From IMG/VR virus record IMGVR_UViG_3300027903_000007, positions 1-57,695 of that record: a stretch of DNA of 57,695 nt; one strand, given 5' to 3'. Source of the stretch: a virus. This document shows positions 38,036 to 56,972 of this stretch, piece after piece; positions within the stretch are counted from its first letter, which is position 1; every line of letters starts with the position of its first letter. Below the pieces are notes generated by a model. The model was not told the DNA's origin. It worked only from the letters and a program-made list of their open reading frames with translations, and did no database searches. The translations under genes were made by a program, and so were the position numbers.

Positions 38036-38263
38036 ATGTCCAGTGATTTCGTTACAGGTGAAGTTAAATGGTTTAGTTCTGAGAAAGGTTATGGCTTTGC
38101 TCTTGTTGAGGGCAAAGACATTTTTATCCACAGTAAGCGTTTAAGAGAATCTGGTTTCTGTAAAGATGCAACGAGTGTGGCTTTGGAAACTGGTGACAAG
38201 TTGAAGTTCAAAATTGAATCTGGGCCAAAGGGCGCTTTTGCTATAGACATTTCAAAGGGGTAG
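38036..38263 (+). CDS. cold-shock domain protein
   Basis: In this 75-residue protein, GEVKWFSSEKGYGFALVEGK contains RNP1 (KGYGFA) and DIFIHSKRL is RNP2, the two nucleic-acid binding strands of CspA-type proteins. The length is close to that of CspA (about 70). It would bind single-stranded RNA or DNA as a chaperone or antiterminator. It precedes the head genes in the same direction. Confidence 0.9.
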   Translation: MSSDFVTGEVKWFSSEKGYGFALVEGKDIFIHSKRLRESGFCKDATSVALETGDKLKFKIESGPKGAFAIDISKG

Positions 38264-38266
38264 ATC

Positions 38267-38791
38267 ATGACTGCACCCGGTTTGAATGAAATCAGTACTA
38301 CAACTCTTAGGAATAGGAAAATGGATAAGAAGCTCGGTGCAAAAGCTACGGCTGATATTCATAAGAGTGGTACGCATGTTCCTGATAAGGATTTTGGTAC
38401 AAAGAAAAAAGAAAGTAAAGCAGCAGGGACTGGTAAACCCGAAAAGGGCAGCCTTGCTTCAGCAGCAGCTGGAACTGATGCTACTGAGAAAAAAAGTTGG
38501 GGTGGCTCACCTGAAGATTGGGTGAGTGACTACCGTGAGTCCAAACGTAAAGGTATTTCATCTGATCAGTGGGAAGATTCTGCATCTGATAGGCTTTCAG
38601 ACAATGCCGGTGAGCGTAAAATGAAAGCTGAATCTGAGAAATCAGAAGCACCTGAATATAAATCCGGTGGTGGTGCTTTCACTAACAAGCCTAAAACTTC
38701 TCATGGCTTTGGCCATACCGCAGTCAATCATGACGGGCATCATCGAATGAGTGGTCATTCTGGTGCGCATAGAATTGGCAAAAAACGTTAA
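38267..38791 (+). CDS. head-operon protein with capsid-like N-terminus
   Basis: This 174-residue protein is low-complexity, rich in Lys, Ser, Gly and Glu. The N-terminus GLNEISTTTLRNRKM matches the capsid protein N-terminus (NLSEIVTTTLRNRTG). The C-terminus HRMSGHSGAHRIGKKR is shared with the next two genes. It is probably disordered with short interaction motifs; a minor head or packaging-associated role is inferred. Confidence 0.6.
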   Translation: MTAPGLNEISTTTLRNRKMDKKLGAKATADIHKSGTHVPDKDFGTKKKESKAAGTGKPEKGSLASAAAGTDATEKKSWGGSPEDWVSDYRESKRKGISSDQWEDSASDRLSDNAGERKMKAESEKSEAPEYKSGGGAFTNKPKTSHGFGHTAVNHDGHHRMSGHSGAHRIGKKR

Positions 38792-38807
38792 CCTAAAGGA
38801 ACAGATC

Positions 38808-39110
38808 ATGCCTACACAAATTAGAGCCCCATTACCATCTAAAGATGGTCATAAGACCCAGCCTCAAGGGCATGGTATTGGAATTCCAAAGAATGTAGTT
38901 GATAATTTGCCTAAGGGCGGTGGTGCTGGCGTACATGAGTCTCAGCCGCATGGTCATAGCCTTGGCATTCCTCAAAGTGGTACTTCTACGAAGAGTACTG
39001 GAGCCACAAGCCCCGGCAATAGTGCGGGCATTTTTAAGTCTTCTACAGGTAGTGTGTTGCGTAATTCAGGTGTAAGTGGAGCTCACAGATTAGGGTGTAG
39101 GAAGAAATGA
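38808..39110 (+). CDS. small protein with GAHR motif C-terminus
   Basis: About 100 residues from the ATG at 38808 with AAAGGAACAG upstream. It has two copies of a QPxGHxxGIP-type repeat (TQPQGHGIGIPKN and SQPHGHSLGIPQS). The C-terminus NSGVSGAHRLGCRKK is related to the neighbours. It is low-complexity; the function is unknown. Confidence 0.6.
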   Translation: MPTQIRAPLPSKDGHKTQPQGHGIGIPKNVVDNLPKGGGAGVHESQPHGHSLGIPQSGTSTKSTGATSPGNSAGIFKSSTGSVLRNSGVSGAHRLGCRKK

Positions 39111-39412
39111 AAAGGCGTATCAGAACACAACCGTCTAATCCTTATTACAGTGATGAACCGGCTGTATCCAAAGGTTTGATTGCCGATAAAGCACCTGTTC
39201 AAAATGCTTCACTTGGCAACAAGCCTAACAAGATCGTCGACAAAAAGCCGGGCAAGATGTCAGGTGTTGCTAATTTCACTAGCAAGGGTAAACCTCGTGC
39301 TGGTTCTTTCGCTAAGTTGCCTACGTTCGGTACTAAGGCAAAACAACCGGCTCAACTTCGTATGAGTGGGCATGCCGGTGCTCACAGGATTGGTGCAAAG
39401 CTTAAAATTTAG
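39107..39412 (+). CDS. small basic protein with GAHR motif C-terminus
   Basis: In this 101-residue protein the C-terminus LRMSGHAGAHRIGAKLKI matches that of the gene at 38267. The rest is Lys/Pro/Gly-rich and basic. It overlaps the previous gene by four bases. The function is unknown. Confidence 0.6.
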   Translation: MKRRIRTQPSNPYYSDEPAVSKGLIADKAPVQNASLGNKPNKIVDKKPGKMSGVANFTSKGKPRAGSFAKLPTFGTKAKQPAQLRMSGHAGAHRIGAKLKI

Positions 39413-39424
39413 TGGAGTGATTTA

Positions 39425-39964
39425 ATGACTTTGGAAGTGCATGTATCTCAGTTTTGGAATGGTGCTGATCAGGCAGCATTTGAAAACTCTGTCCAAGAAT
39501 ATGTCAATTCACTGCATGCCTTTAACATGGTGGTAGGCAAACCCCGTCCGACGGCTCACCCTCTTGTTGAGAGGGCAATTAAAAGGGTTCAAAAGCAAGG
39601 ATTCCCAGATCAGTATGTGGCTGATTATGTGGTTATTGATGATACACCACCTCCACCCTCTCTTGAGGATAAGAAAAATAAACTTATGTCTGAATTGAGG
39701 GCAGCTGAAGCCGTTGCTATGAACAGTGTGCTTCCTCATCGTAAGACACGATTGGTACATCTCAATAGTAATAAAGCTTTAACAGTTTCTGAAGAGCAAC
39801 GTACTGATGAACATAAAAAAGATATTGAATTACTTGAAAAGATTAAAGCTTTCAATGAGAAAATTATGAGGATTGCTGCTCAAGCAGAATCGGACATTGA
39901 TGATTTGACTGAACAGACAATAGATAGTTGGCAACCTCCGACATTTGAGTTAATTAATGGTTAA
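39425..39964 (+). CDS. helical hypothetical protein
   Basis: In this 179-residue protein the N-terminal part (HVSQFWNGADQAAFENSVQE) is followed by a long coiled-coil-like helix from about residue 80. GGAGTGATTTA precedes the ATG. It overlaps the small terminase-like gene by eight bases. No family is recognised. Confidence 0.65.
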   Translation: MTLEVHVSQFWNGADQAAFENSVQEYVNSLHAFNMVVGKPRPTAHPLVERAIKRVQKQGFPDQYVADYVVIDDTPPPPSLEDKKNKLMSELRAAEAVAMNSVLPHRKTRLVHLNSNKALTVSEEQRTDEHKKDIELLEKIKAFNEKIMRIAAQAESDIDDLTEQTIDSWQPPTFELING

Positions 39965-40556
39965 GATAATTAAATTACCAATGCCTCAAGTTGTTCCTCG
40001 TGTTGGAAATTATTTAGGTAGACCAGGTCCAACAACAAGCCAAAAGAAGTTAAAATCTTTGCGCAGGCATGCAGTCCCACCGGGGGGTATTTTGAATCCT
40101 TATGGCTGTTATGGTAATACGCGCAAGCAACGTTATAGGATTACTTGGTTTGGCTTGAAACTCAAACCTGCCCTGAGGGAGGAAGCATTGAAGAGGAACA
40201 GAATTAAACTTCAACAAAAGAAAGCGATTCAGCTTGAGTTGCATGAACTGCAAGCTTTAGCTCGTGAGAATGCTACGGCGGCAATGCACACTCTTGTTGA
40301 GATTATGAAGAATAAGCGTGCACCCGAGGCAAATAGAATTGCTGCATCAGCAGTTGTTCTTGATCGTGGTTATGGGAAAGCTTCCCAAGTGAGTATAACT
40401 GCAAGTGTCACCAATGGCAAAGCTGATAACCTCGATTCAACCGAACTCGACAAGCGAATTAGCCGAGCTCTCAAGAGAGTTGAGGATCTTACAAACCGAA
40501 CGCCAAAAGCGGGAACGGGCCAAAAACGACCTGTTAACCTACGCCTCTATAATTAA
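39957..40556 (+). CDS. terminase small subunit-like protein
   Basis: In this 199-residue protein, ARENATAAMHTLVEIMKNKR, then APEANRIAASAVVLDRGYGK is the signature seen in DNA-packaging proteins directly upstream of large terminases. The N-terminal part is basic. It overlaps the large terminase by 152 bases. It probably recognises the packaging site. Confidence 0.7.
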   Translation: MVKIIKLPMPQVVPRVGNYLGRPGPTTSQKKLKSLRRHAVPPGGILNPYGCYGNTRKQRYRITWFGLKLKPALREEALKRNRIKLQQKKAIQLELHELQALARENATAAMHTLVEIMKNKRAPEANRIAASAVVLDRGYGKASQVSITASVTNGKADNLDSTELDKRISRALKRVEDLTNRTPKAGTGQKRPVNLRLYN

Positions 40557-42882
40557 TATCCCTAGTGGCCCGCTGCGGGAGGAGAATGAAGACGAGGTCG
40601 AACAGTTTCGACCTCGTAAGCATTTGTTCGGTGCGCATCATTTGCTCTGGCTTGATTGTCTTCAGCAAGTTGAAGATGGCAAGATAAAGCGGCTGATGGG
40701 GTTGCTGCCTCCCGGCAGTGGCAAATCAATTTATACTTCAGTTGTTTTTCCAACTCATGTCATGGGACGTTTTAAAGGCTCATCCATCATTGTGGCGAGC
40801 TATGGTTCAGAACTGCCGCGTAAGTTTGGCAGACGTGCCCGCTCAATAGTTCAACAGCCAATTTATAATCGTATTTTTGGCACTTTGCTTTCTGATGAAA
40901 GCAAAGCAGCTGATGAATGGGCGCTTAAGAATAGCAGTGAGTGGATGGGGGCTGGTATCTTGACCGGCATTACTGGTAACCGCGCTGACGGCATTGTGTG
41001 GGACGATTTGATCAAAGGTCGTGAACAGGCTGATTCTGAAGTTATCAGGCAAAAAACATGGGAAGCTTATGGTGATGATCTTCTCACACGTAAGAAACCC
41101 CAAGCTTGGGAAATTGGCGTTACCTGTATGGCAGGAGACACTCAAGTATTGATGGGTAATGGCGCTAATAAGAATTTGCGTGATATTAAGTGTGGTGATT
41201 GTGTTGCTTCTTACTATGAAGGGAAAATTGTTACTTCAAAAGTTTTAAACTGGAGAAATTGTGGTCCTGATAACGTCTTTACTATAAAGACGTTATCAGG
41301 CATTACCGTCGAGGCAAATGCGAGGCATCCGTTTCTCGTTTGCGAAAACGGAGTGTCAACATGGATAAGAACGAAAGACTTACGCCCGGGCCACAGAATG
41401 CTCCGGGTCAATGGGGAAAGTGGAAAGGTAAAACTTGCATCACAGAAGGATGCAACAAGCCAGTTTCAGCACGCGGCTTCTGTGTCACACACTACAATAG
41501 AAAGCGATGGGCTGATGGCGTTCGGCCACCATCAACAGGCGCTGTTTCAGTTCATAATGCGCATCTCAAACATAGGTATGGAATTACTGCTGAGGATTAT
41601 GACCGCATACTTGCGGAGCAAAACGGCCGTTGCGCGATATGCCGTTGTTCAAACCCCAAGACCCCAAGACGCTGGAGACGGCAATTCGTCCCAGATCATT
41701 GCCACGACAGTGGGCGGTTCAGGAGCCTTCTTTGCAATTCCTGCAATATGGTCGTCGGCTACGCTAACACCGCAGAGAATGCGCAAGCCATTGCGGACTA
41801 TCTCCGACTTCACGACGGATCCGATAGCTGAGATTACATATTCAGGCATTGAGGAAGTCTTTGATGTCCAGATCGATGGGACTGAGAATTTTATAGCAAA
41901 TGGGCTAATTTCTCATAACACGAGATGGCACGAAGATGATCCAGCGGGGCGCATCCTACCCGAAAATTATGGTGGGCAAAGTGGGTTATTGCAATGTCGA
42001 GATGGTAATGAATGGTACGTTGTATGCCTTCCTGCTGAGTGCGAACGCACTGATGATATTTTGGGACGAAAAATAGGTGAGATACTTTGGCCTGAATGGT
42101 TTACGGAGGAAATGTTTAGAGCACCTAAACGCATTCCACGTACTTGGTCGTCCCTGTATCAGCAGCGCCCAGCTCCTGACACCGGCATATTGTTTAAATC
42201 TGAATGGCTGAAATCATATGAGCAAAATCCACGCACAGGATACCCAGTAAATTTTGAGCCCGGTGATCTTAACATTTATGGTGCCAGTGATTATGCGGTA
42301 ACTAAAGATCGTGAGAATTACACGGTTCATATCGTGGTGGGGGTGGATAATAAAAGTAATATTTACATTCTTGATCTTTGGCGTAAGCAAGAGAGTTCAG
42401 ATGTTTGGGTTGAGAAATTTTGTGATTTGGTCAAATTTTGGAAGCCTATAGGGTGGGCTGAAGAAACAGGTCAGATCAATAAAGGTGTTGGCCCGTTCCT
42501 TGTAAAACGTATGCGTGAACGACAGGCATATGTCGCTCGTGCGCAATTTCCATCTACTAAGTCAAAGGCTCAGCGTGCTCAGAGTATCATTGGTCGTATG
42601 GCACAAAATGGACTTTATTGTCCTTTTGGTGCATCTTGGTTTGCTGAGTTCAGAAGGGAACTACTTTTGTTTGATGCGGGTACTTTTGATGATCAAGTGG
42701 ATGCCTTGAGTTTGATAGGGATGGTGTTAGATAGAATGATCTCAGCTGACAGTTCTTCTCAAGTTAAGGAAGAACCGAAAGTATTTTCTACTTTTCCCGG
42801 TTTGTGTACAGTTACTTTGGAAGATTTGTTTGAAGCTAATGAGATGCGTAATACCACGACTGGTATTTTAAGGATACATTAA
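40405..42882 (+). CDS. terL: terminase large subunit with in-frame intein
   Basis: This is an 825-residue precursor; the start is GTG at 40405 or ATG at 40414. ATPase domain: Walker A LLPPGSGKS (100-108), Walker B GIVWDD (196-201), coupling motif TRWHEDD (506-512). Nuclease domain: GASDYAV, WAEETGQ and FDDQVDAL supply the acidic residues. A 265-residue intein (241-505) sits exactly before TRWHEDD, so excision restores GVT-TRWHEDD and a protein of about 560 residues. It packages DNA into the prohead. Splicing is therefore probably needed for packaging. Confidence 0.92.
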   Translation: MSPMAKLITSIQPNSTSELAELSRELRILQTERQKRERAKNDLLTYASIINIPSGPLREENEDEVEQFRPRKHLFGAHHLLWLDCLQQVEDGKIKRLMGLLPPGSGKSIYTSVVFPTHVMGRFKGSSIIVASYGSELPRKFGRRARSIVQQPIYNRIFGTLLSDESKAADEWALKNSSEWMGAGILTGITGNRADGIVWDDLIKGREQADSEVIRQKTWEAYGDDLLTRKKPQAWEIGVTCMAGDTQVLMGNGANKNLRDIKCGDCVASYYEGKIVTSKVLNWRNCGPDNVFTIKTLSGITVEANARHPFLVCENGVSTWIRTKDLRPGHRMLRVNGESGKVKLASQKDATSQFQHAASVSHTTIESDGLMAFGHHQQALFQFIMRISNIGMELLLRIMTAYLRSKTAVARYAVVQTPRPQDAGDGNSSQIIATTVGGSGAFFAIPAIWSSATLTPQRMRKPLRTISDFTTDPIAEITYSGIEEVFDVQIDGTENFIANGLISHNTRWHEDDPAGRILPENYGGQSGLLQCRDGNEWYVVCLPAECERTDDILGRKIGEILWPEWFTEEMFRAPKRIPRTWSSLYQQRPAPDTGILFKSEWLKSYEQNPRTGYPVNFEPGDLNIYGASDYAVTKDRENYTVHIVVGVDNKSNIYILDLWRKQESSDVWVEKFCDLVKFWKPIGWAEETGQINKGVGPFLVKRMRERQAYVARAQFPSTKSKAQRAQSIIGRMAQNGLYCPFGASWFAEFRRELLLFDAGTFDDQVDALSLIGMVLDRMISADSSSQVKEEPKVFSTFPGLCTVTLEDLFEANEMRNTTTGILRIH
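41125..41919 (+). mobile_element. intein in terminase large subunit
   Basis: It begins with Cys (CMAGDTQVLM, block A) and ends with FIANGLISHN before Thr (blocks F/G, with the Asn needed for cleavage). Block B is EANARHPFLV with its His. These are the residues of a class 1 splicing intein. There is no in-frame endonuclease: the middle third (about 41410-41815) translates to low-information sequence because the DNA there encodes an HNH protein in another frame. Confidence 0.9.
41361..41831 (+). CDS. HNH endonuclease (endonuclease VII-like) nested out of frame in the intein
   Basis: About 156 residues from the ATG at 41361, with GGAG seven bases upstream (an ATG at 41340 also exists). It is offset by two bases from the terminase frame. 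Features are C..GC..PVSARGFC, then YGITAEDYDRILAEQNGRC and CRCSN, then PDHCHDSGRFRSLLCNSCN and a following NTAENAQAIADYL; this is the zinc and catalytic layout of T4 endonuclease VII-type HNH proteins. It probably promotes intein mobility while the flanking protein splices. It starts inside the N-terminal and ends inside the C-terminal splicing region. Confidence 0.85.
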   Translation: MDKNERLTPGPQNAPGQWGKWKGKTCITEGCNKPVSARGFCVTHYNRKRWADGVRPPSTGAVSVHNAHLKHRYGITAEDYDRILAEQNGRCAICRCSNPKTPRRWRRQFVPDHCHDSGRFRSLLCNSCNMVVGYANTAENAQAIADYLRLHDGSDS

Positions 42883-45441
42883 ATGGACGTGGAACTTGAT
42901 CCACTGGCTGGGCCTGATGGTGGACGTAAGTCTGAACGCAAAGCTTTCTTCTGGTGTGACCAAATTGAAAAGATAGGCAAGGATAAAGGTTACCTTAATT
43001 TTATTAAACGTGGTCACAAGATTGAAGCTCGTTACCGCGATGAACGTAGTCGCGTTGACGAAGAGTCACGACGTCGATATAATTCACTCTGGTCCAATGT
43101 AGAGATTCTGAAGCCAGCCATTTATGGCAAGACCCCCACACCTCTTGCTGAGCGTAAGTTTGGTGACAAAGATCCTGTTGCTCGTGGTGCTGCTCAAATC
43201 CTTGAGCGCGCGTTGCGCAATGAAATAGAAATATGTGGCTTCCACGAAGCCATGAACCAAGCAGTTAGTGATTATTTGTTGCCGGGTCGTGGCACATTGT
43301 GGGTTCGTTACGAACCTCAGATTGAGGCAGGCATCTCACTGCCTAATGAAGACAGCATTGATATGAAGGATAGTAAGGAGCAATCGACTGAGTCGAGTGC
43401 TACTGATGGTGAAGATCTTGCGCCTGAGAATCAAGATGCTGAGGATAAGGATCAGGACGGTAATACGTCTGAAGAGGATCCAGCTACAGAGAAATTGGAA
43501 TCTACAGGGGACCAAATTGTTCGTGAGTCTACCCCGGTTGATTACATTCATTGGGAAGATTTTCTTATCTTTCCAGCCCAAGCACGAACTTGGGCTGAGG
43601 TAGTGGCAATTGGTAAACGTGTGTTCCTCACTTATGAGCAAATGCGTGATCGCTTTGGTAGAGAGATTGCCAAGGCAATCCCGCTTGAGAAGGATGAACG
43701 TCAAAAGGATCGTTACGAAAACACAAATGCTGAAAATGAGGTTAAAGGCGAGATATATGAAATTTGGAGCAAGCAGGACCGTACAGTTTATTGGGTAGCT
43801 TCGGGTTATGATTATCTTCTTGATCGAAAAGACGATCCGTTAAATTTGGAAAATTTCTTTCCAGTGCCACGTCCTATCATTGCTAACCAAACTACTGGCA
43901 CGATGCTTCCAGTTGCTGATTATATTCAGTATCAGGATCAGGCTACTCAAATAGACGAACTGAGCCAGCGCATAGCCATGCTCACCCGAGCTTGTAAGGT
44001 TGTTGGTACCTATAATGCTGCTGCGAAGGGCATTCAGAGGCTTTTGAATGAATCTCTTGAGAATGAATTGATCCCAGTTGATGACTGGGCAATGTTTGCT
44101 GGGGATAAGGGCGGTGTTGCTGGGCAAATGTCTTTCATGCCTCTGAAGGAGATCATTGGTGTTCTCAATGAATTAATGTCTATAAAGGAAAAGCAAATTG
44201 AGGAGATGGACAGACTTACTGGTATTAATGATTTGATGCGGGGCACAACGGATGCACGAGAAACATTGGGTGGTCAAAGGCTGAAGTCTAATAACACAGG
44301 AACACGTTTGACGAGTCGACAGAATGAGGTTGCACGCTTTGCCCGTGACACTGTGCGGATCATGGCAGATATTATGGCTCAGCATTTTTCGCCTCAGTCA
44401 TTGGTGGAAGCTTCTGGCGCAATGTATGAGGAAGGTCTTGGCATAGATCAAGATAAATTGCAGGCTTTGCAGAACCAACCACCTGCCCCTGCTTTATCAG
44501 CTCCGGGTGTTCCACCTTCTATGTCCGGAGCAGGTCCGGGCATGCAGCCTGCGGCGGCTTCTATGGGGCAACCTGCCGCTCCTCCTATGCCGCCGCAGGC
44601 TGGTCAGAATGTAGTTCCGTTCCCCAAATCCCCGATGTTGGCTCCTCCGGGTGGCCCTCCGGGGGCTCCTCCCAGTATGCCCATAACAGCCCCACTTGTA
44701 GCGCCGGGCTTGCCTATGCCTCCTCCGCCTGATCCAATGCAAATATTGCTTCAGGAGGCCTCACAGCGCATTGAGTCGGCCATCAAATTGATTCGTGATG
44801 AGCGTTTTCGCGGATTTCGGGTTGATATCGAGATAGATTCGACGATTTACGGTGATGCGACTCAAGAAAAGGTTGATCGCACTGAATTTATTTCAGAAGT
44901 TACGAAATATCTTCAAACTGCCATGGAAATGGCAACCCAAGTACCTGAAATTTTACCACTTTTAGGCAAATTGCTGCAATTTGGCGTGCGTGGCTTCCGT
45001 GTTGGCCGGGATCTTGAGTCCTCTATTGAAGAATTCTGTGATCAGTCAATCAAAATTGCTAAACAGAAACAAGCACAGGCTGCTTCTCAACCAAATCCGG
45101 AGCAAATCAAGGCGAATGCACAGGCTCAGCAAGCACAAGCTTCTTCACATGCAGCAGAAGTGCGTTCTCAGGCCGATATTGCTAAATCTCAGAATACTAT
45201 TAAGACTGAAGAACTTAAGGCCCAATCGAGTCAGCAACAGGCTCAAGCTGAGGTTATACGTCAGAAAGAAGAAAGTGCTGGTGAACAAGCAAATAACCAA
45301 GCTGACCTGATCATGAAGCAAATGGATGTGCGTATGCGTGAGATGGAGATGCAAATGGAGGCGATGCGTATGCGTGCTGAGGCTATGAAGCCAATTGAAC
45401 CAACTAAACCAGAGTCAGTGGCAGGTGGAGTAGGGTCATGA
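42883..45441 (+). CDS. portal protein (P22-like)
   Basis: In this 852-residue protein the core (about 20-520) contains RRYNSLWSNVEILKPAIYGKT, VDYIHWEDFLIFPA and EMDRLTGINDLMRGTTDARE, typical of podovirus portal proteins. An acidic insertion lies at about 150-205. A Pro/Gly/Ala linker (about 535-615) and a long Gln/Ala coiled-coil C-terminus (from 700) follow. It starts directly after the terminase stop. It forms the dodecameric DNA channel at the capsid vertex. Confidence 0.88.
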   Translation: MDVELDPLAGPDGGRKSERKAFFWCDQIEKIGKDKGYLNFIKRGHKIEARYRDERSRVDEESRRRYNSLWSNVEILKPAIYGKTPTPLAERKFGDKDPVARGAAQILERALRNEIEICGFHEAMNQAVSDYLLPGRGTLWVRYEPQIEAGISLPNEDSIDMKDSKEQSTESSATDGEDLAPENQDAEDKDQDGNTSEEDPATEKLESTGDQIVRESTPVDYIHWEDFLIFPAQARTWAEVVAIGKRVFLTYEQMRDRFGREIAKAIPLEKDERQKDRYENTNAENEVKGEIYEIWSKQDRTVYWVASGYDYLLDRKDDPLNLENFFPVPRPIIANQTTGTMLPVADYIQYQDQATQIDELSQRIAMLTRACKVVGTYNAAAKGIQRLLNESLENELIPVDDWAMFAGDKGGVAGQMSFMPLKEIIGVLNELMSIKEKQIEEMDRLTGINDLMRGTTDARETLGGQRLKSNNTGTRLTSRQNEVARFARDTVRIMADIMAQHFSPQSLVEASGAMYEEGLGIDQDKLQALQNQPPAPALSAPGVPPSMSGAGPGMQPAAASMGQPAAPPMPPQAGQNVVPFPKSPMLAPPGGPPGAPPSMPITAPLVAPGLPMPPPPDPMQILLQEASQRIESAIKLIRDERFRGFRVDIEIDSTIYGDATQEKVDRTEFISEVTKYLQTAMEMATQVPEILPLLGKLLQFGVRGFRVGRDLESSIEEFCDQSIKIAKQKQAQAASQPNPEQIKANAQAQQAQASSHAAEVRSQADIAKSQNTIKTEELKAQSSQQQAQAEVIRQKEESAGEQANNQADLIMKQMDVRMREMEMQMEAMRMRAEAMKPIEPTKPESVAGGVGS

Positions 45442-45728
45442 CCACTCATGAAATTAGAGAATATATAGAATCTAAAATTGTTCCTCCTTTTAAGATTGTT
45501 ATGGGCAACGGGATGGCTACTCCGTCTGGTGTTTTTTATTGGGATGCTAACTTTGATGCCATTGCAATCCTGATTGGAAGGTATGACAACAACAATGTGA
45601 CTTGTCTGTCAATTTCTAGTCTTGAGCAATTACAAGCTAGGAATGATACTGAACTTAAAAAGCGGCTTGATGCTCGTTTTGATCAAGTCATGAAAACATG
45701 GGAAATGTATCTGGAGCAAGCAAAATGA
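45438..45728 (+). CDS. small hypothetical protein
   Basis: This 96-residue protein has GVFYWDANFDAIAILIGRYD and a helical C-terminus (LKKRLDARFDQVMKTWEMYL). It overlaps the portal stop by four bases and the next start as ATGA. No family is recognised; it lies within the head module. Confidence 0.65.
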   Translation: MTTHEIREYIESKIVPPFKIVMGNGMATPSGVFYWDANFDAIAILIGRYDNNNVTCLSISSLEQLQARNDTELKKRLDARFDQVMKTWEMYLEQAK

Positions 45729-46072
45729 TCTATCGGCGTAGCTTTCTTAAAGGAATGTCAGCTTTGTTTATTGCTCCGGCAATTATCAGGGCTGAGAGTT
45801 TAATGCCAATCAAGGAGTATATGCCTGCGGTGCCTGCGTGGTGCCCTGAAGGTTGGCTTCCGCTTGATGGTCGCGAGATAAGCAGGAAGTTTTATCCAGA
45901 TCTTTATGCAGCTTTTCAACGTACAAGATTGCCGTTGATGATCCCAGAGTATGAAGACTCAAATGGTTTTAAAACCGTTATATCTTATAAGAATCTTATT
46001 CGTCCTAATGGGAAGTTGATGTTAGCAGGCGCTTACCACCCCTTGTATGTTCCTAAGGAACTTGATGTATGA
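45725..46072 (+). CDS. Tat-signal protein with tail-collar-like domain
   Basis: In this 115-residue protein the N-terminus MIYRRSFLKGMSALFIAPAI is a near-perfect twin-arginine signal (RRSFLKG plus a hydrophobic stretch, cut near RAES). The following CPEGWLPLDGREISRKFYPD and LYAAF resemble the phage tail-collar fold (GW..LDG...S...YP.LF). A head-module gene with an export signal is odd. It could be a host-targeted or envelope-acting form of a collar domain. Confidence 0.7.
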   Translation: MIYRRSFLKGMSALFIAPAIIRAESLMPIKEYMPAVPAWCPEGWLPLDGREISRKFYPDLYAAFQRTRLPLMIPEYEDSNGFKTVISYKNLIRPNGKLMLAGAYHPLYVPKELDV

Positions 46073-46371
46073 CAATTTTTGTTTATCGCAACGGCAAGCT
46101 CGTTGACAAGAACAAAGCAGGACCAAAGAATGAGAAGCTTGGTACGGCATCTTTTGTCATTAGTGACGAGATGGACGCTACGAGACATATGGCAACGGGC
46201 GAATATCTTACGAGTAAGGCAAAGTTCAGACAAGCGACTCGAGATGCGGGCTGCATAGAAATCGGCAACGAAACATCAACGCTCTTGAAGCCACGTCAAA
46301 AGATAGAACTAGATCGTGGGGCTCGACGTGAAGCGATTCAGCGCGCAGTCTATGATTTGCGTAATCGTTAG
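46069..46371 (+). CDS. conserved phage hypothetical protein
   Basis: In this 100-residue protein, FVISDEMDATRHMATGEYLT then KFRQATRDAGCIEIGNE is a pattern found in podovirus head modules between portal and scaffold. The C-terminus is a basic helix. The function is unknown. Confidence 0.7.
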   Translation: MTIFVYRNGKLVDKNKAGPKNEKLGTASFVISDEMDATRHMATGEYLTSKAKFRQATRDAGCIEIGNETSTLLKPRQKIELDRGARREAIQRAVYDLRNR

Positions 46372-46409
46372 TTGTATGGGTCGCACTAGCTGCCCAAAAG
46401 GAGAGTGAT

Positions 46410-47681
46410 ATGTTGAATTCTTTTACACGTCATTTTAATGAGACTGTATTCCGTGGCCCCGATAATGAAGGCGGTAGCGGTGATGGTTTGGAAAATGTTT
46501 CTGACGGTGGTGGTGACGGTGGTGATGCTGGTGGCACAGATGGTGCTGATGGCGGTGGCGAGGATGAATCGCAAAAGCCGCTTTCAGTGCGGGAGCAACT
46601 CAAGGCGTCGATTGAAGAAGTAAGGGCTGACGAAGAGAGCAAAACCAAGACACCTAAAAAGGATGCTAAAACAGGCAAATTTCAAGCTGCACCTAAATCC
46701 GGTGAAGCGCTCCCAGAAGGAGGGGAAGTACCCCCGGCAGTTACTTCCGCTGCTGCTCCTGCGGACTTGCCCCCGGAGGCGAAGGCTGAATGGGATAAGA
46801 CCCCACCTGCTGTGCAGGCGGCTTTTATAAAGCGTGGTCAGGATATGGCTGCTGGGGTCGAGCAGCTAAAGCAACGCTATAATTTGATTGATCAGGCGAT
46901 TGCCCCGCACAATGATGCCTTGCGGCAAATGAATGCTACTCCAGCGGACGCTGTTAACCGCATGTTTCTGTGGTTTAAAGCGTTGGCAGGAAGTCCTGCG
47001 CAATCCTTCCCTGCCCTTGCAAAAAGCATGGGCATTGACTGGACTAAATTAGTTGGTCCAGCTGCTCCTGCTGCTGGTATTGCCCCCGCGCCAGCGGCGG
47101 GAGCTGAAGGAGCGGGTGGTGCTCCCCCGGTTACCGAGATACCAGCACCTGTTAAGGAATACATCGGTAATCTTGAGCAGCAGCTTCAACAGTTGTCGGG
47201 TGTTGTGAACCAAATTGGTGGTCAGTTTGGAAATATGCAGCAATCTTTCCAGGTACAAAGTGAAGCCAAGACCAGAGAAAACCTTAGTATTTGGGCAAAA
47301 GACAAGCCTCACTTTGAAGAAGTTCGTCAAGATATGGCAAAGTTGATAGAGACTCAGGTAGTGCCTTTGAAGGCAAACGGTGAAGTTGATCTGGACACTG
47401 CCTACGAACGTGCTATCTATTTTAACCCTGAAGTGCGGAAGAAGGTTCTTGCTGAACAACAGCAAGCAGACCTTGCAGCCCGACAGCAGACGCAGGATGC
47501 GGCTACAACCGCTCAGCAGACGCAAGTTGGGAAAGCCCGCAAGGCCGCTGTTTCGCTTCCTGCCTCTTCCACCCCCGGAGCCACACAAGGCAACAGGGCT
47601 GTGGTTACCAAGAAGCCCGGTCAAAAGACATCAGTACGAGATGACCTTAGGCTAGCTATTCAGCAGCTTAGGGAACAATAA
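46410..47681 (+). CDS. putative scaffolding protein
   Basis: In this 423-residue protein, an acidic Gly/Asp tract (15-50) is followed by Lys-rich and Ala/Pro-rich linkers, a helical middle (about 190-330) and a Gln/Ala-rich C-terminus ending KTSVRDDLRLAIQQLREQ. The position between portal and major capsid and the helical, acidic composition fit a scaffold. AGGAGAGTGAT precedes the ATG. There is no protease motif. Confidence 0.7.
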   Translation: MLNSFTRHFNETVFRGPDNEGGSGDGLENVSDGGGDGGDAGGTDGADGGGEDESQKPLSVREQLKASIEEVRADEESKTKTPKKDAKTGKFQAAPKSGEALPEGGEVPPAVTSAAAPADLPPEAKAEWDKTPPAVQAAFIKRGQDMAAGVEQLKQRYNLIDQAIAPHNDALRQMNATPADAVNRMFLWFKALAGSPAQSFPALAKSMGIDWTKLVGPAAPAAGIAPAPAAGAEGAGGAPPVTEIPAPVKEYIGNLEQQLQQLSGVVNQIGGQFGNMQQSFQVQSEAKTRENLSIWAKDKPHFEEVRQDMAKLIETQVVPLKANGEVDLDTAYERAIYFNPEVRKKVLAEQQQADLAARQQTQDAATTAQQTQVGKARKAAVSLPASSTPGATQGNRAVVTKKPGQKTSVRDDLRLAIQQLREQ

Positions 47682-47714
47682 GCGTAGAGTGGTTTCGACG
47701 TGCTAAGAATATGA

Positions 47715-47741
47715 AAGCTGGGGCTTTCACAAGAAGCCCCG
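47715..47741 (+). other. stem-loop before the capsid gene
   Basis: GGGGCTT-TCACAAG-AAGCCCC lies between the scaffold and capsid genes. No T-run follows. It may be an RNA-processing site or attenuator that sets capsid expression. Confidence 0.45.
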
Positions 47742-47808
47742 CCTCATCCTCCAGCGGTTACCATTAGGTTGGGCGTTGCGTTTTCAACCATAACCCGGAG
47801 ATATGACA

Positions 47809-48846
47809 ATGGCAGTAGGTTTTCCAAACCTGTCTGAAATTGTTACCACGACTCTGCGCAATCGTACTGGCGAGCTTGCGGACAATATGTCCCGTAATAA
47901 CGCGGCGCTGTTGCGTCTCAGCAAGCGTGGTAACGTTAAAACCTTCAGCGGTGGCCGTACCATCGTTCAAGAACTTAATTATGCTGATAACCAGACCTAT
48001 CAATGGTATTCGGGCTATCAAACTTTGAATATTGCACCCAGCCAAGTTTTCACGGCTGCGGAATATCCGATTCGTCAGTCAGCGGTTGCTGTTTCAATCA
48101 GCGGTTTGGAAGAACTCCAGAACTCTGGTGAGGAAGCGATCATCGATCTTCTTGAGTCCCGCATCATGAATGCGGAAGATACTTTCATGAACGGTCTGTC
48201 ACAAGGTATTTATGGTGACGGTACTGTGACTGGCTCAGTTGGTGGCTTGCAACTTCTTGTTGCAGCCGCTCCTACTACTGGCGTGGTAGGCGGCATTGAT
48301 CGTTCGCAGTGGACCTTCTGGCAGAATCAAACTTGGTCAGCTGCTACCAACGGCAACACTGTTCTTTCTTCTGCTTCTATCCTTCAGCAAATGGACGCCC
48401 TTTGGGTGACCCTGATTCGTGGCCGGGACTTCCCGGACTTGATCATTGCTGACAATACTACGTATCGTTATTATCTGAACGCACTGCAAGCAATTCAGCG
48501 CATTCAGATTGAAAACAGCGCACCGGATATGGCTGAGTCTGGTTTCCAGAGTCTTAAATATCTGAATGCTGACGTGGTGCTGGATGGTGGCTTCCAAGGC
48601 TTTGCTGCGGATCCATTGCCGCCTCAGATCAGTTCTTCTACTTCGGCGCTCGGTGGTGCCCCTGCTACCACAATGTACTTCCTTAATACCAAGTACCTTA
48701 TGTGGCGGCCCCATGCTCGCCGTAACATGGTCCCTCTTGATCCGGATCGTTTTTCGGTCAACCAAGACGCCATGGTTCGTTTGATTGGCTGGGCAGGCAA
48801 TATGACCTTATCCAACGCTTTTCTCCAAGGGGTGCTCACCGCTTGA
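47809..48846 (+). CDS. major capsid protein
   Basis: About 346 residues from the ATG at 47809 (CCGGAG upstream). NLSEIVTTTLRNRTGELADN then MSRNNAALLRLSKRGNVK is the typical N-terminus of podovirus P22/N4-like coat relatives. The body has the usual capsid signature FSGGRTIVQELNYADN and TVLSSASILQQMDALW. It builds the icosahedral shell. A hairpin follows the stop. Confidence 0.85.
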   Translation: MAVGFPNLSEIVTTTLRNRTGELADNMSRNNAALLRLSKRGNVKTFSGGRTIVQELNYADNQTYQWYSGYQTLNIAPSQVFTAAEYPIRQSAVAVSISGLEELQNSGEEAIIDLLESRIMNAEDTFMNGLSQGIYGDGTVTGSVGGLQLLVAAAPTTGVVGGIDRSQWTFWQNQTWSAATNGNTVLSSASILQQMDALWVTLIRGRDFPDLIIADNTTYRYYLNALQAIQRIQIENSAPDMAESGFQSLKYLNADVVLDGGFQGFAADPLPPQISSSTSALGGAPATTMYFLNTKYLMWRPHARRNMVPLDPDRFSVNQDAMVRLIGWAGNMTLSNAFLQGVLTA

Positions 48847-48852
48847 AGAATA

Positions 48853-48884
48853 ATGAGGGGTACGCTTAACTGTGTGCCCCTCAT
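48853..48884 (+). other. stem-loop after the capsid gene
   Basis: ATGAGGGG and CCCCTCAT form an 8-bp stem with a 16-base loop five bases after the capsid stop. There is no T-run, so it is more likely an RNA-stabilising or partial-termination hairpin. Confidence 0.5.
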
Positions 48885-48936
48885 GCTGTGGTGTAAAAGA
48901 TGGATAACGCGTACCTACATGCAATGTTGATGTTCT

Positions 48937-49419
48937 ATGCAGCTATCTATGGCCCAACTACCTTTGATAGCAGATTCGGTCATTGGGAATCGCTTAGCGC
49001 TAGATCTATCCCTGCAATCGCTCATCCTGAGCCAGTTAGAAAGGCAATTGGATGTAAGTGTAAACCTGCTAAACCAAGGGTATTCGTTGATACTCGCAGA
49101 GTCAGTAGAGGACAACATGCAAGAAGTGAAGGACCTAGCTGCTGGCATGAGGGGGTTGATGGCGGGCTTGAGAAAACTCAATGTGGACGCCAAGAACCGA
49201 CTAACTTCCGAGGTCACCCGCGCACAGGTCAACGCACAAAAGGCAATGTCGCTGGCTACTGAATTAAGTGACGCCAATAGGGAGGTCGAGGATTTCCTTG
49301 GGGAGTCAGGATCAAATTTCCCTCCCTCAGAGGACTCAGATACCCCGCCTGCCGTTACTTTGCTAAAGCCTGATATAAATGGTGTTTCTTTACATCCAGA
49401 TACACTTAAGGGAAAGTAA
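48937..49419 (+). CDS. helical head-module protein
   Basis: About 160 residues (an ATG at 48949 is also possible). It is long and helical (LSLQSLILSQLERQLDVSVN, then KKLNVDAKNRLTSEVT-like segments) with an acidic Pro-rich tail. A competing frame at 48900-49262 is less protein-like. It could be a head-completion or decoration-associated protein; the position is the only evidence. Confidence 0.6.
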   Translation: MQLSMAQLPLIADSVIGNRLALDLSLQSLILSQLERQLDVSVNLLNQGYSLILAESVEDNMQEVKDLAAGMRGLMAGLRKLNVDAKNRLTSEVTRAQVNAQKAMSLATELSDANREVEDFLGESGSNFPPSEDSDTPPAVTLLKPDINGVSLHPDTLKGK

Positions 49420-49725
49420 ATGGCCGTTCTTTATGTGACTGAATTTAATACTATTGGTGGCGGCGGCAACCATCCTATTTCTGGTGCGCAGTACCCTGCG
49501 GTTGCGGAACAAACAGTTGTAATTACAAGTCCTTCTACACAATCGGCAGCTTTTAATAAGAATACTACTTTTATTCGAGTCCACAATGACGTTATTTGCT
49601 CAATTGAAATTGGGGCAAATCCAACTGCGTCTCTTACTACTGCACGTATGGCAGCCGGTCAAACTGAATATTTCTCTATACCGCCGAACTTAAACTTTAA
49701 AATAGCTGTGATTACCAACACATGA
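49420..49725 (+). CDS. small beta-rich structural protein
   Basis: In this 101-residue protein, FNKNTTFIRVHNDVICSIEI and GQTEYFSIPPNLNFKIAVIT are alternating strands, similar to small head-decoration or stopper-like phage proteins. It starts directly after the previous stop. No family is named. Confidence 0.65.
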   Translation: MAVLYVTEFNTIGGGGNHPISGAQYPAVAEQTVVITSPSTQSAAFNKNTTFIRVHNDVICSIEIGANPTASLTTARMAAGQTEYFSIPPNLNFKIAVITNT

Positions 49726-49737
49726 GGATGTTTTGAT

Positions 49738-50439
49738 ATGATGGGAGCAGCTGGCGGTCTAGGTACCAGCAACACTTCTGATGCAGCCAATCTTGCAACG
49801 AGTGCTTCGGCACTTAGTGCACTAGCGTCATTGTTGGAGGTTGTGTCTGATCCAGCAGCAGCTAAGGCAATGCTTAAGGAGCTTAATTCAAAGAGTGCCG
49901 AAATTCAAAATCTTCTTGATCAGGTGAAGCTTCAATATCAAAATATCGAAGCCATGCATAAGGATGTATATACAAATCAGGTAAAAGTTGATGCTAGCCT
50001 CAAAGAACTGGATGCTAAAGATGGCAATTTGCGCGCTCGTGAAGCAGACGTTGCTGGTAAGCTTGAGTCGCTTCAAAGCCGTGAAGATTCATTTTTGAAG
50101 GCTAAGCAAAGCTTTGACCAAATCAAGAAACAGAAGGAAACAGAGCATGCAGAGCGTGCGGCTGTCTTGTCTAAGGCTGAAAGTGATAATGCGGCTAAAT
50201 TGGCTGCAATGATTGCTGATGCTGAAGGAGCTTTTGTTGAACGTAGGATTGCGCTTGAAGTTGATCTTGATAAACTGAAAGAAGAGTATAAGGCCAAAGT
50301 AGAAGGTGCTGACAAGCTTCATGCGGAAGCTGCTGAAGCACATAAGAAGGTATCAACAACTTTGGCTGATGCTGAAGCTAAAAAGAAATTCTATGAAGGA
50401 CGTGTAGCTTCGCTTAAACAGTTGATACAAGAGGGTTAA
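49738..50439 (+). CDS. coiled-coil protein
   Basis: In this 233-residue protein, after an Ala/Ser-rich start, residues 40-230 are one long heptad-type coiled coil (EIQNLLDQVKLQYQNIEAMH and on). It may be a minor structural or assembly protein. No enzymatic motif is seen. Confidence 0.7.
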   Translation: MMGAAGGLGTSNTSDAANLATSASALSALASLLEVVSDPAAAKAMLKELNSKSAEIQNLLDQVKLQYQNIEAMHKDVYTNQVKVDASLKELDAKDGNLRAREADVAGKLESLQSREDSFLKAKQSFDQIKKQKETEHAERAAVLSKAESDNAAKLAAMIADAEGAFVERRIALEVDLDKLKEEYKAKVEGADKLHAEAAEAHKKVSTTLADAEAKKKFYEGRVASLKQLIQEG

Positions 50440-50440
50440 A

Positions 50441-50593
50441 ATGGCGAAACAGGATAAATCAGGCAATTGTAAATTGTGTGGTATTTGGCGACATGTTTTA
50501 TGTCGAGATCATATGACTAAGATGGATGCGCAACGTTTGGGTAGGATGGGTGCTGCTGCAAGATGGCATTTTAAAACGGAGCGATTGTCATGA
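50441..50593 (+). CDS. very small zinc-finger-like protein
   Basis: In this 50-residue ORF, CKLCGIWRHVLCRDHM has four potential zinc ligands (C, C, C, H), followed by MDAQRLGRMGAAARWHF. The ATG lies one base after the previous stop, and its stop overlaps the next ATG as ATGA. No function is known. Confidence 0.6.
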   Translation: MAKQDKSGNCKLCGIWRHVLCRDHMTKMDAQRLGRMGAAARWHFKTERLS

Positions 50594-50940
50594 GTCGACA
50601 AATGGGATATTTGATGGTTGACCACCGTGCTTCTCCGGGACTTCCTGAAGATATTGCAAGGCAGGTTGGTTATGTCCCGGAGCTCTGCCGCGAAGGTAAG
50701 ATGTTTGAAGCTGACACTTTGACTTGTGCACATTGCAAGGGGGTGGTTGTCAAGAATCCATTTCGTGTAAGAGAGCGTAACTACTGCACCAAGTGTTCTG
50801 GTCATTACATTTGCGATGGTTGCGCTTATTTGGCATCGTTATCAGATTATGTTCATGTAGACTTCGAAAAGGTTGTCGAAGACATTAAAAAGCAGACAAT
50901 CATTATGGGTAGCCCTGACACTTTGACTGGAGAACAATAA
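50590..50940 (+). CDS. conserved zinc-binding phage protein
   Basis: In this 116-residue protein, MVDHRASPGLPEDIARQVGY, FEADTLTCAHCKGVVVKNPF and YCTKCSGHYICDGC form a conserved podovirus protein with about eight zinc-ligand cysteines. Its genes lie between capsid and tail genes in related phages; the role is unknown. Confidence 0.75.
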   Translation: MSRQMGYLMVDHRASPGLPEDIARQVGYVPELCREGKMFEADTLTCAHCKGVVVKNPFRVRERNYCTKCSGHYICDGCAYLASLSDYVHVDFEKVVEDIKKQTIIMGSPDTLTGEQ

Positions 50941-51233
50941 TGGCACTTCAATTTGCTTCTATAGTTACATTTGCTGGCATTGATACGACAGGTCCAGGAG
51001 TTTGTTCTTTAACTACTGTTAATAGATCACCATCTGGTCCAAGAGCACATGAGCCGGGTATGGTATTAGGTACGGTGCTGGATCTTACAACAAACAACGG
51101 TATCACACAGCAGTTCTTGCTTTCTCAAAGTTGGTTGAATTCAGATGAAAAAGTTGCTCAGTATGGGCTGTACCAACTTGTTGGATTCAATAATGTTGGT
51201 AAGCAGTGCTTAGCTGTGTTCATGATTGCATAG
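50940..51233 (+). CDS. small structural-type protein
   Basis: This 97-residue beta-rich protein (ASIVTFAGIDTTGPGVCSLT, then SWLNSDEKVAQYGLYQLVGF) has an ATG that overlaps the previous stop. No family is recognised; it is probably a minor virion protein by position. Confidence 0.6.
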   Translation: MALQFASIVTFAGIDTTGPGVCSLTTVNRSPSGPRAHEPGMVLGTVLDLTTNNGITQQFLLSQSWLNSDEKVAQYGLYQLVGFNNVGKQCLAVFMIA

Positions 51234-51257
51234 TTTCATAAGAAAGGAAAATAGATC

Positions 51258-51779
51258 ATGTCTAAGCGCATCTTTCAGGTTTCTTCGTTTACCCCGACAC
51301 AACAAGCTGACAGCGCATCTCAGTTAACAGCTGGTACTTGGGCTACGCTTAAGGCTGGCTCGGCGACTGATATTTTGAAAATTGGTAAGGTGTTGCTGGA
51401 AGGTCAGGCTTCGTCATCGGCAGTTACAGCAACTATGTTGGCCCGTTCTTCAACTCTTGCTGCTACACCAACTGCGCTTGCACTACCGAATACTGATGGC
51501 CCTGCAAATATTGCAGCTACAGCAGTGACGACAGCACCAGTTCCTGCGGTAGCTGCGACAACGGGGCCAATTAGGCAACCAGCAGTTACAATCCCGCGTC
51601 TTAATCTGACCTTTAATGCTTTCGGTGGCATTATTCAGTGGCAGACTAATCCGGGATCAGAAGAGGAATGGGTATCGGTAGGTACTGCTACCACCAGCAA
51701 CTCTGAAACGATCTTGTCTTCAGCTAACGTTGGTGCTGCTGGCTTGATTGGTGCCAATATCTTCTATGAAGTGCTGTAA
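51258..51779 (+). CDS. virion-type beta protein
   Basis: This 173-residue protein is rich in Ala, Thr, Ser and Val, with a C-terminal LNLTFNAFGGIIQWQTNPGS followed by a strand ending YEVL. AAAGGAAAATAG precedes the ATG. It is likely a structural component; the specific role is unknown. Confidence 0.6.
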   Translation: MSKRIFQVSSFTPTQQADSASQLTAGTWATLKAGSATDILKIGKVLLEGQASSSAVTATMLARSSTLAATPTALALPNTDGPANIAATAVTTAPVPAVAATTGPIRQPAVTIPRLNLTFNAFGGIIQWQTNPGSEEEWVSVGTATTSNSETILSSANVGAAGLIGANIFYEVL

Positions 51780-51789
51780 GGAATAGTAG

Positions 51790-52170
51790 ATGGCTGCCGC
51801 AACTCAGCAAACTCAAGCTATTGCTGTCGCTAATCAATTGATTGGTTTATCGACTGCATTGATATCGATTTATCAGCAAATGGTGGTGCTCGATGCAGCT
51901 TGGACGGATCAGGGCACTGCTAATGTGTTGAATGCGATGGGTACGGTGGCTTTGAATACGGATGGTTCAACGGGTACGGCTGATGTTACGCCAAATGTCA
52001 CTCACCCGCTTAGTCCTGCGCTATATTCAAATTTGTCGCGTTCATTATCTGCAAATCAAATTACGTCACTTAAGACTATTTTGGATAACATTGTGACTTA
52101 TGTTAATGGTAGCGCGGTGAGCGCGACTGCTAGTGCGCGAAGTATTCTTAATACTACTGTTGGTGGCTAA
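51790..52170 (+). CDS. virion-type protein
   Basis: In this 126-residue protein, a helical N-terminus (TQAIAVANQLIGLSTALISI) is followed by NAMGTVALNTDGSTGTADVT and a second helix. It is a typical small Ala/Thr-rich phage structural protein. The exact role is unknown. Confidence 0.6.
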   Translation: MAAATQQTQAIAVANQLIGLSTALISIYQQMVVLDAAWTDQGTANVLNAMGTVALNTDGSTGTADVTPNVTHPLSPALYSNLSRSLSANQITSLKTILDNIVTYVNGSAVSATASARSILNTTVGG

Positions 52171-52172
52171 GT

Positions 52173-52634
52173 ATGGCTACTAATTTCCTTTGGGGTCCGG
52201 TTGGCACCGTCATCCATTTGCTGACGACTGAGCTTAATACACTTGGTGCGGCTGGTGGTACTGCTTATGGTCCTGAAGTCGGTGGCGCGAATAGTGCACA
52301 GCGTGGGATGCTTTATTTGCATATTGCATCAAGTTCATTGGCATTTGTATCGTCATCTTTTGTCAGTGTTTATTTAGTGCCATCAACTACTACTGCTTCT
52401 GGTGCTACGTATCCGACATATACCTCTGGTGCGACTCCTACATATTCTGGCAATGGTTTCGTTGGTAATATTAATATCAATCCGAAAACGCAGGCTGCGA
52501 ACGTAGTTGATGAAGTATTGCCCGGTATCATCATTCCTGCTGGATTTTTTAAATGTATTTTAATTAATAGTTCTTTGGCCTTACCTGCTTCTGGTAACAC
52601 TTTGGATCTTTATCCAACGCCAACACAATACTAA
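52173..52634 (+). CDS. virion-type beta protein
   Basis: This 153-residue protein is mainly beta with Gly/Thr/Ser-rich loops (PSTTTASGATYPTYTSGATP). LPGIIIPAGFFKCILINSSL at the C-terminus is like small tail-associated proteins of podoviruses. The start is two bases after the previous stop. Confidence 0.6.
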   Translation: MATNFLWGPVGTVIHLLTTELNTLGAAGGTAYGPEVGGANSAQRGMLYLHIASSSLAFVSSSFVSVYLVPSTTTASGATYPTYTSGATPTYSGNGFVGNININPKTQAANVVDEVLPGIIIPAGFFKCILINSSLALPASGNTLDLYPTPTQY

Positions 52635-52637
52635 TTA

Positions 52638-53861
52638 ATGTCTCAGTTCCCTTCAAACCCTAGGCAAGGCCCAGCCAAACCCTACGCATCCATTCCGCGT
52701 ATTGATTGGACGCATCCGCTAGCGGATTCACTGATCTTTTACGCCTATGACGCAGGTGGGGTGATCTATGATCTGGTAAGTGGTGGTGGCTCAGGTAAGA
52801 TAACCACATCCACAACTCACATTACCAGAACAATTTCTAAAGAAGGCTATGGTCTTAAATACCCCGGCACAGCTACTTCCGATAGCGTCTCCCTTCCTCT
52901 AGCCAGCAAAGCCACTCAAGGATTTACAAACACCGCACCCTTCTCCGCTGCGGTAGGAGTTTTTGGCAGTGTAGGTGTCAATAATGGTTACTTCACGTCA
53001 ACCGGGGATGCCACAACTGATGTCGCCGGGTTCACTGTGCAGGCTACTACTTTTGGGTTCAACTTTAATAACGGTGGTTCTCAAGTTGCTTTCAATACAG
53101 CGGTTTCAGCTAACAATTACCACACTGGTGTGGCAGTTGCGACTTCATCCACCGCTGCAACGTTATACTTTGATGGAAAGCTTGATCACTCTGTCACTGC
53201 AATAACCACTACCAATGCGACTACTAGCCAACAGGTTAACTTCAATAGCGGCACTGCTAGTAGCGTGAACTTTGGCGGTGGTTGGAATGGATTCGTCCAC
53301 TACTGGGCTGGTTGGAATCGCGTCCTATCCGCAGCTGAAGCAGGGTTACTTCATTCTGACCCATATTGTTTCCTAATCTATCCCGAGGATGAAGTTTTCA
53401 ATACGCTGGTTGGTGTAGTAGCTGCTGCTGCCGCACTTCCATTTAACACTTTATGGGTGCCGGTTACCCAACCATTAGTACCTTTCCCGCAACTACAGCC
53501 TTATAATAACCAACTATTTAAAAATCCTATTCCATTTGGTCCTTATGACTATAGTGTTGGCCCGTGGCGTGTTCATCAAACTCAAATTGATTTGTCACGT
53601 CCTACTAATCTCAATCTATTCAAGAATAATATTCCATTTTTTAATTTTGAAGGGTTAACAAGTGCAAAAAATGTTGCCAATTTAATATCAATCTTGCAGC
53701 CTTATAATCAGAACCTTTATACAGTTACAGCACAAGTCCCATTTACTCAGACAGATTGGTCGAAGTCATTTAATTTATCGCTTCCGATACAGCCAGCACA
53801 GCCCTATAATCAATCGCTCTATGCTGTTACCATCACGTTAATGGGACAGGCATGGATATAG
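52638..53861 (+). CDS. LamG-like protein with NLF/PYN repeats
   Basis: In this 407-residue protein, residues about 25-260 look like a conc-A/LamG jelly-roll (FYAYDAGGVIYDLVSGGG, YHTGVAVATSSTAATLYFDG, WAGWNRVLSAAEAGLLHSDP), a glycan-binding fold in phage tail proteins. The C-terminal 140 residues hold four of the repeats found in the next gene (for example NQLFKNPIPFGPYDY and YNQNLYTVTAQVPFTQTDW). It is probably a tail-fibre or head-fibre adhesin. Confidence 0.75.
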   Translation: MSQFPSNPRQGPAKPYASIPRIDWTHPLADSLIFYAYDAGGVIYDLVSGGGSGKITTSTTHITRTISKEGYGLKYPGTATSDSVSLPLASKATQGFTNTAPFSAAVGVFGSVGVNNGYFTSTGDATTDVAGFTVQATTFGFNFNNGGSQVAFNTAVSANNYHTGVAVATSSTAATLYFDGKLDHSVTAITTTNATTSQQVNFNSGTASSVNFGGGWNGFVHYWAGWNRVLSAAEAGLLHSDPYCFLIYPEDEVFNTLVGVVAAAAALPFNTLWVPVTQPLVPFPQLQPYNNQLFKNPIPFGPYDYSVGPWRVHQTQIDLSRPTNLNLFKNNIPFFNFEGLTSAKNVANLISILQPYNQNLYTVTAQVPFTQTDWSKSFNLSLPIQPAQPYNQSLYAVTITLMGQAWI

Positions 53862-53864
53862 CAC

Positions 53865-56360: not shown

Positions 56361-56372
56361 TTGGGTACTTCT

Positions 56373-56972
56373 ATGACAACTTTAGACCCAGCAAACAAAG
56401 CTGTGCAAGTGACTTTGAGCAACGCGAATTTAACAGCCGTATCATCAACAATTGGTAGAACTGTTTATTCCACTACAACAAAGACGGTCGGTAAATGGTT
56501 TTTTGAAGTAACCACAACAAATGATGGCTCAGGAAATAATGAATTTGGCATAGGTTCTGTTACAAATCAGAACGTCAATGCATTTCTTGAATCTTCTGGT
56601 GGTGTTGGATTCACTTATGCTGGTGGTGGTGTTTGGAATGATAACGGAGGAGGTGGGGGCACTTCTAATACATATACTCCTGGTGCAACTTTTACAGCAA
56701 GTGTTTGTCTTGATCTAGATATTAATCTACTTTATCTTATTGTTGATGGAACACATAAAGTATGGGGGGATGCTGATACATCCACTGGAGGGGTTTCATT
56801 GACTCCGGATGCTGCTGGGTTTTTTGCCGGTCTTGTTCCTATAAGTGGGGGTGCTAGTCTTACTATAAATTTTGGTGCTACAGCTTTTGTTGCGGCAATT
56901 CCAGTTGGTTTTAGTTCTTGGGATGTTCAAGTAGCACCCCCAACAACATTGCTGCCTCAAGCCTTGTTATGA
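56373..56972 (+). CDS. SPRY/B30.2-like virion protein
   Basis: About 199 residues from the ATG at 56373 (a TTG at 56361 is possible). GRTVYSTTTKTVGKWFFEVT, then EFGIGSVTNQNVNAFL and LYLIVDGTHKVWGD then AGFFAGLVPISGGASLTINF match the SPRY domain order. SPRY-type domains in phages are found in tail-associated proteins. It could mediate host binding. Confidence 0.7.
   Translation: MTTLDPANKAVQVTLSNANLTAVSSTIGRTVYSTTTKTVGKWFFEVTTTNDGSGNNEFGIGSVTNQNVNAFLESSGGVGFTYAGGGVWNDNGGGGGTSNTYTPGATFTASVCLDLDINLLYLIVDGTHKVWGDADTSTGGVSLTPDAAGFFAGLVPISGGASLTINFGATAFVAAIPVGFSSWDVQVAPPTTLLPQALL

Follow-up and report, generated by a model that had tools for sequence, protein, structure and literature searches.

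A terminase intein with an overlapping, out-of-frame HNH gene that is probably its separately encoded homing endonuclease

The terminase gene in the window (the whole stretch of DNA analysed, 57,695 nucleotides of the virus record IMGVR_UViG_3300027903_000007) contained an intein, within which an HNH endonuclease gene was read out of frame. We consider it very likely that this intein is mobile and that its homing endonuclease is encoded by an overlapping gene of its own instead of an in-frame domain. The HNH protein, a putative DNA cutter, probably spreads the insert. This reading is based on the anatomy of the element, its conservation, the pattern of selection, the joint transfer of intein and HNH and the repeated loss of the HNH, while splicing is predicted from the literature on a homologue. 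The features are listed in Table 1.

Table 1. Coordinates of the terminase, the intein and the nested HNH gene in the window
Feature	Position	Strand	Basis or remark
Terminase large subunit ORF with intein	40405..42882	+	Single uninterrupted frame, 825 codons from GTG
Intein, 265 residues	41125..41919	+	Pfam PF14890, TIGR01443, TIGR01445; clean empty site in relatives
N-terminal Hint piece, residues 1-97	41125..41415	+	Block-B NxxH (N65, H68), invariant columns, AlphaFold
Putative ribosome-binding site GGAG	41350..41353	+	7 bases 5′ of HNH start codon; sequence
HNH endonuclease gene, 156 residues	41361..41831	+	Frame +2 relative to intein; PF02945 3.4e-18
Intein linker, residues 98-225	41416..41799	+	HNH gene read out of frame; low pLDDT, near-neutral evolution
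Zinc-finger-like motif C26-C31-C41-H44 of HNH protein	41436..41495	+	Invariant columns
Endonuclease VII domain (CxxC, DHCH, CxxCN) of HNH protein	41562..41807	+	PF02945, residues 68-149
C-terminal Hint piece, residues 226-265	41800..41919	+	AlphaFold

Both intein-flanking halves of the terminase ORF matched the PHROG terminase large subunit, and the portal gene was the next gene after it. The true start of the terminase is uncertain and may lie downstream of the GTG. The window had a two-arm layout, in which the long ORFs of positions 1-35400 were mostly on the minus strand, among them a DnaB-like helicase (9857-11287) and another helicase (6701-8242), and those of positions 38200-57691, with terminase and portal after 38 kb, were mostly on the plus strand.

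The sequence-only reading had proposed a full intein in the terminase frame, from Cys 241 to Asn 505 with a block-B His and a +1 Thr, and both the coordinates and the profile matches agree with it. The intein occupied codons 241-505, immediately 5′ of the Thr in a TRWH motif, and possessed the residues of a class-1 intein: the N-terminal Cys1, the block-B His68, the penultimate His264, the terminal Asn265 and the +1 Thr. In block B, Asn65 stood where Thr is usual. The Pfam Intein_splicing profile was matched at 3.4e-14, and TIGR01443 and TIGR01445 exceeded the cut-off. The ends of the intein were conserved across the family, with Cys in 129 of 130 inteins and the final Asn and the +1 Thr in all 130, and the terminases of Microcystis phage Mwe-JY13 and Pseudanabaena phage Pan3 (L060, L061) possessed a clean empty site. 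In the AlphaFold model, two confident Hint pieces (residues 1-97 and 226-266) were joined by a disordered 128-residue linker (98-225), pLDDT being about 94-98 over residues 1-90, about 30 in the linker and above 90 from residue 231. The model superposed on mini-inteins of solved structure, such as 4o1r (TM by target 0.88), and the intein is predicted from it to have the Hint fold.

The nested gene had been described as an endonuclease VII-type HNH offset by two bases, with a GGAG-ATG start at 41361 and an end at 41831, and its coordinates and the Endonuclease_7 match bear this out. Its ATG overlapped the intein's invariant Trp codon (41362-41364). Among the catalytic and zinc columns of the protein, C91, C94, D112, H113, C125, C128 and N129 were invariant and H115 nearly so. 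The N-terminal part gave a weak match to Zf_WRKY19, under the cut-off. The HNH model was fairly confident (mean pLDDT 85). Foldseek searches with it gave weak matches to Hpy99I and T4 endonuclease VII, by contrast with the clear sequence match to the latter (2.5e-9). The inteins of L006, L029, L059 and L126 were longer (about 890-950 bp), and the HNH nested in them had an additional N-terminal segment rich in cysteine, which may be a second zinc finger.

Relatives of the window's intein were sought in viral contigs, bacterial genomes and phages, taking the best 80 matches per collection scan. All scans pooled, at least 167 distinct inteins of this family were found, and in at least 151 of them the HNH was intact and in frame +2; the rest comprised 14 mini-inteins, a single one-base shift (L022) and one apparent in-frame LAGLIDADG (L355). 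These counts are lower bounds, and the ratio of intact to mini-inteins is not readable as a frequency. The claim of a nested, out-of-frame homing endonuclease was thereby strongly supported in its recurrence, and likewise in the selection, structure and joint transfer observed in relatives. The matches from bacterial genomes came from Pseudomonadota, Actinomycetota, Chloroflexota and others and presumably stem from prophages or from viral contigs within bins. In none of the 10 intein-bearing phage records examined was the HNH annotated as a separate gene; that of Vincenzo notes only a homing endonuclease in the intein.

The recurrence also bears on the view that the offset is a sequencing or assembly error, or that a decaying intein formerly had its HNH in frame. 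L022 does show a one-base shift, but the same offset was present in at least 151 distinct loci, whose sources were isolate phages, metagenomes and bacterial genomes, and among the matches listed none other than L022 had its HNH in the intein frame. Sequencing error is ruled out by this recurrence, and the view as a whole is extremely unlikely. In L022 (1942-2740), most of the HNH fell in the N-terminal intein frame and the C-terminal intein was out of frame. It is either a natural mutant or an assembly error (a single contig, shared with L077 and L297). L355 (1786-2844) was a related terminase intein without HNH and with an apparent in-frame LAGLIDADG, called by eye from its motif, which would be the canonical architecture within the same family. 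The terminase of L233 (1460-3736) carried two inteins, a mini-intein of the window's family (2501-2944) and an intein-like insert upstream (about 1928-2365). In the tree, nested HNHs were split from nearly all free-standing HNHs with support of 100/98; only L045, a partial row on a long branch, departed from this. The topology is consistent with a single nesting event but does not prove one.

The start of the HNH gene was strongly constrained in position: in 127 of 130 loci it lay 236, 239 or 242 bases past base 1 of the intein Cys codon. These 127 starts were ATG (101), GTG (25) or TTG (1), each formed from the last base of one intein codon and the TG of the invariant Trp codon. Where the intein codon at the start was four-fold degenerate, its last base was A in 13 cases, G in 5, T in 1 and C in none, against a roughly even spread at four-fold sites elsewhere in those inteins. 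The GG at -11/-10 of the putative ribosome site was present in about 95% of the 127 loci, though by a simple pattern a clear GGAG-like site was absent in about a third of loci. Ribosomal frameshifting is common among phages and the two frames overlap directly, and the HNH could in principle be made in this way, as a fusion with the N-terminal intein and with no start of its own. However, the start codon and ribosome site were conserved, and the nearest HNH-frame stop lay a median of 15 nt 5′ of the start (no more than 30 nt in 73 of 127 loci). Since such stops lie close upstream in most loci, we reject a frameshift fusion as very unlikely.

The sequence-only reading had put the chance of an open intein frame at 0.2%, a figure that rests on a random-DNA null and does not hold once the HNH protein and its codons are given. 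In codon shuffles of the window that preserved the HNH protein, the intein frame was open in about 11%, so that the window by itself supports selection only weakly. The claim that selection keeps this frame open was not borne out by the window sequence alone, but it was by comparison of relatives. None of the 130 distinct inteins with an in-register HNH was interrupted, whereas synonymous shuffles would leave only 28.6 open; the 130 loci held no intein-frame stops against 185 expected from the shuffles, and 1491 in the unused third frame. As these loci share ancestry they are not independent trials, although they have diverged (median HNH identity 49%). Thirteen free-standing HNH homologues had 64 stops in the equivalent frame, about five each, and in none was it open. 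In these, 6 of 21 Met residues preceded Ile, Met, Thr, Asn or Lys, against 0 of 49 in nested HNHs. The codons for all five residues begin with A and therefore force an intein-frame stop after Met.

Comparison of dN/dS-type ratios in both frames, as had been proposed earlier, was made by counting substitutions in 14 independent close pairs. In the overlap, substitutions accumulated at the second position of intein codons, where the HNH frame has its wobble base (436, versus 107 and 169 at the other two positions), whereas outside it they accumulated at intein position 3 (189, against 60 and 35). N/S was 0.24 in the HNH frame, 0.72 in the overlapped intein frame once the HNH effect was allowed for, and 0.17 in the intein outside the overlap. 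Thus, the HNH frame is under purifying selection and the overlapped intein frame is near neutral save for staying open. Only 4 substitutions were scored as intein stops (24.8 expected), and as all the compared sequences are open, these must be compensated by neighbouring differences. Selection on linker composition was also considered and is ruled out, as linker hydropathy was the same as in shuffled controls and wobble T was not avoided. HNH genes are common in phage introns, and the insert might be taken for an RNA intron that carries one. This is hardly credible, since an Rfam search gave no group I or II match, the protein-splicing motifs outside the overlap are under the purifying selection described above, and the frame was never interrupted.

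The intein and its HNH transfer jointly between unrelated terminases. Their distances were correlated (0.48, or 0.44 allowing for TerL), and the correlations with TerL were lower, at 0.26 for the intein and 0.29 for the HNH. In the pairs L013/L016 and L095/L104, inteins 84-90% identical resided in terminases that were merely 30-35% identical. The insertion that holds the HNH is thus mobile: some homologues lack it and have empty sites, and unrelated hosts share it. The 14 mini-inteins (L037, L050, L233, L265-L268, L271-L273, L275, L277, L278 and L340) had lost most of the HNH through in-frame deletions with differing end points, and nearly all retained the start of the HNH gene, along with remnants of its N- or C-terminal part that could still be recognised. 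They fit the known homing cycle, which leads through fixation to loss and in which the endonuclease is dispensable but splicing is not. Relatives with a broken HNH and a retained intein had earlier been held to speak against the nested arrangement; they do exist, but they are decayed copies, so the arrangement stands. The same observations bear on a role for the HNH as a partner of the terminase, kept for the benefit of the phage and not for homing, for instance in resolving branched DNA ahead of packaging, like T4 endonuclease VII. The protein belongs to the endonuclease VII sequence family and the host gene encodes the packaging motor, as this role would suggest. However, the HNH was found only within the intein, intein-free terminases lacked it, it was repeatedly deleted while intein and terminase remained intact, and it travelled with the intein as a unit between unrelated terminases. 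A partner role is therefore improbable.

For a mobile intein with a separate endonuclease, we infer internal initiation, cleavage and homing. The terminase mRNA would be translated across the entire intein, and the two Hint pieces would fold around the disordered linker and splice the terminase. Ribosomes would also start at the internal GGAG...ATG and produce a free 156-residue HNH nuclease, which would cut intein-free terminase genes near the TRWH codons, and the element would be copied in during repair. Over the HNH, the intein frame would be kept solely because a stop would destroy the terminase, while the HNH frame would be maintained by homing and repeatedly lost through in-frame deletions.

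Canonical large inteins likewise have a homing endonuclease between the N- and C-terminal splicing blocks of a Hint domain. However, their LAGLIDADG or HNH domain is in frame, as it apparently is in L355 at the same terminase motif, whereas here the endonuclease is outside the intein polypeptide (frame +2 in at least 151 intact cases). Split inteins whose halves flank a free-standing endonuclease gene were reportedly described by Dassa in 2009. In these the endonuclease is likewise a separate protein, but here host gene and intein form one continuous ORF. The TerL6-f intein in gp6 of the mycobacteriophage Chandler spliced readily in a reporter assay (PMC5050341). It belongs to the window's family (L056), being inserted in the terminase before TRWH with a nested HNH in frame +2. 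The main text of that paper reports endonuclease domains only for TerL1-b and TerL1-c and does not mention the nested HNH of TerL6-f.

The closest published case is the ShiLan domain, which, like the Pacc40 insertion, is an out-of-frame HNH in a phage methylase gene with a disjunct distribution that suggests homing (PMC11855218). As in the window, the host frame stays open through the insertion that contains the HNH. In ShiLan-type insertions neither splicing domains nor a ribosome site were detected (PMC11855218), unlike the window, where the intein is complete and both the start and the ribosome site of the HNH are conserved. The earlier claim of novelty may hold for nesting inside an intein, of which ShiLan is no precedent, but not for an out-of-frame HNH in a phage insertion. 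For overlapping reading frames, PMC11855218 cites Gosselin, Arsenault and Gogarten 2025 (bioRxiv 2025.01.02.630785), on non-canonical actinobacteriophage inteins, in which the actinophage members may already be described. By its title that work concerns actinobacteriophages only, whereas most loci in our census came from other phages.

We judge it evenly balanced whether these elements form a separate, widespread class of mobile intein with an overprinted, independently translated endonuclease, which would have arisen by one ancient nesting, spread by homing via terminases across phages of several bacterial phyla, decayed repeatedly to mini-inteins and been described previously, if at all, only in actinophages. 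They represent another combination of intein and endonuclease, in which the proteins are physically separate and yet inseparable at the DNA level. They provide about 150 natural dual-coding cases, viral and prophage, in which selection acts on the two frames with clearly unequal strength. They also offer a natural set of HNH deletions and predicted inteins whose disordered linkers exceed 120 residues. Such nested genes are overlooked by annotation.
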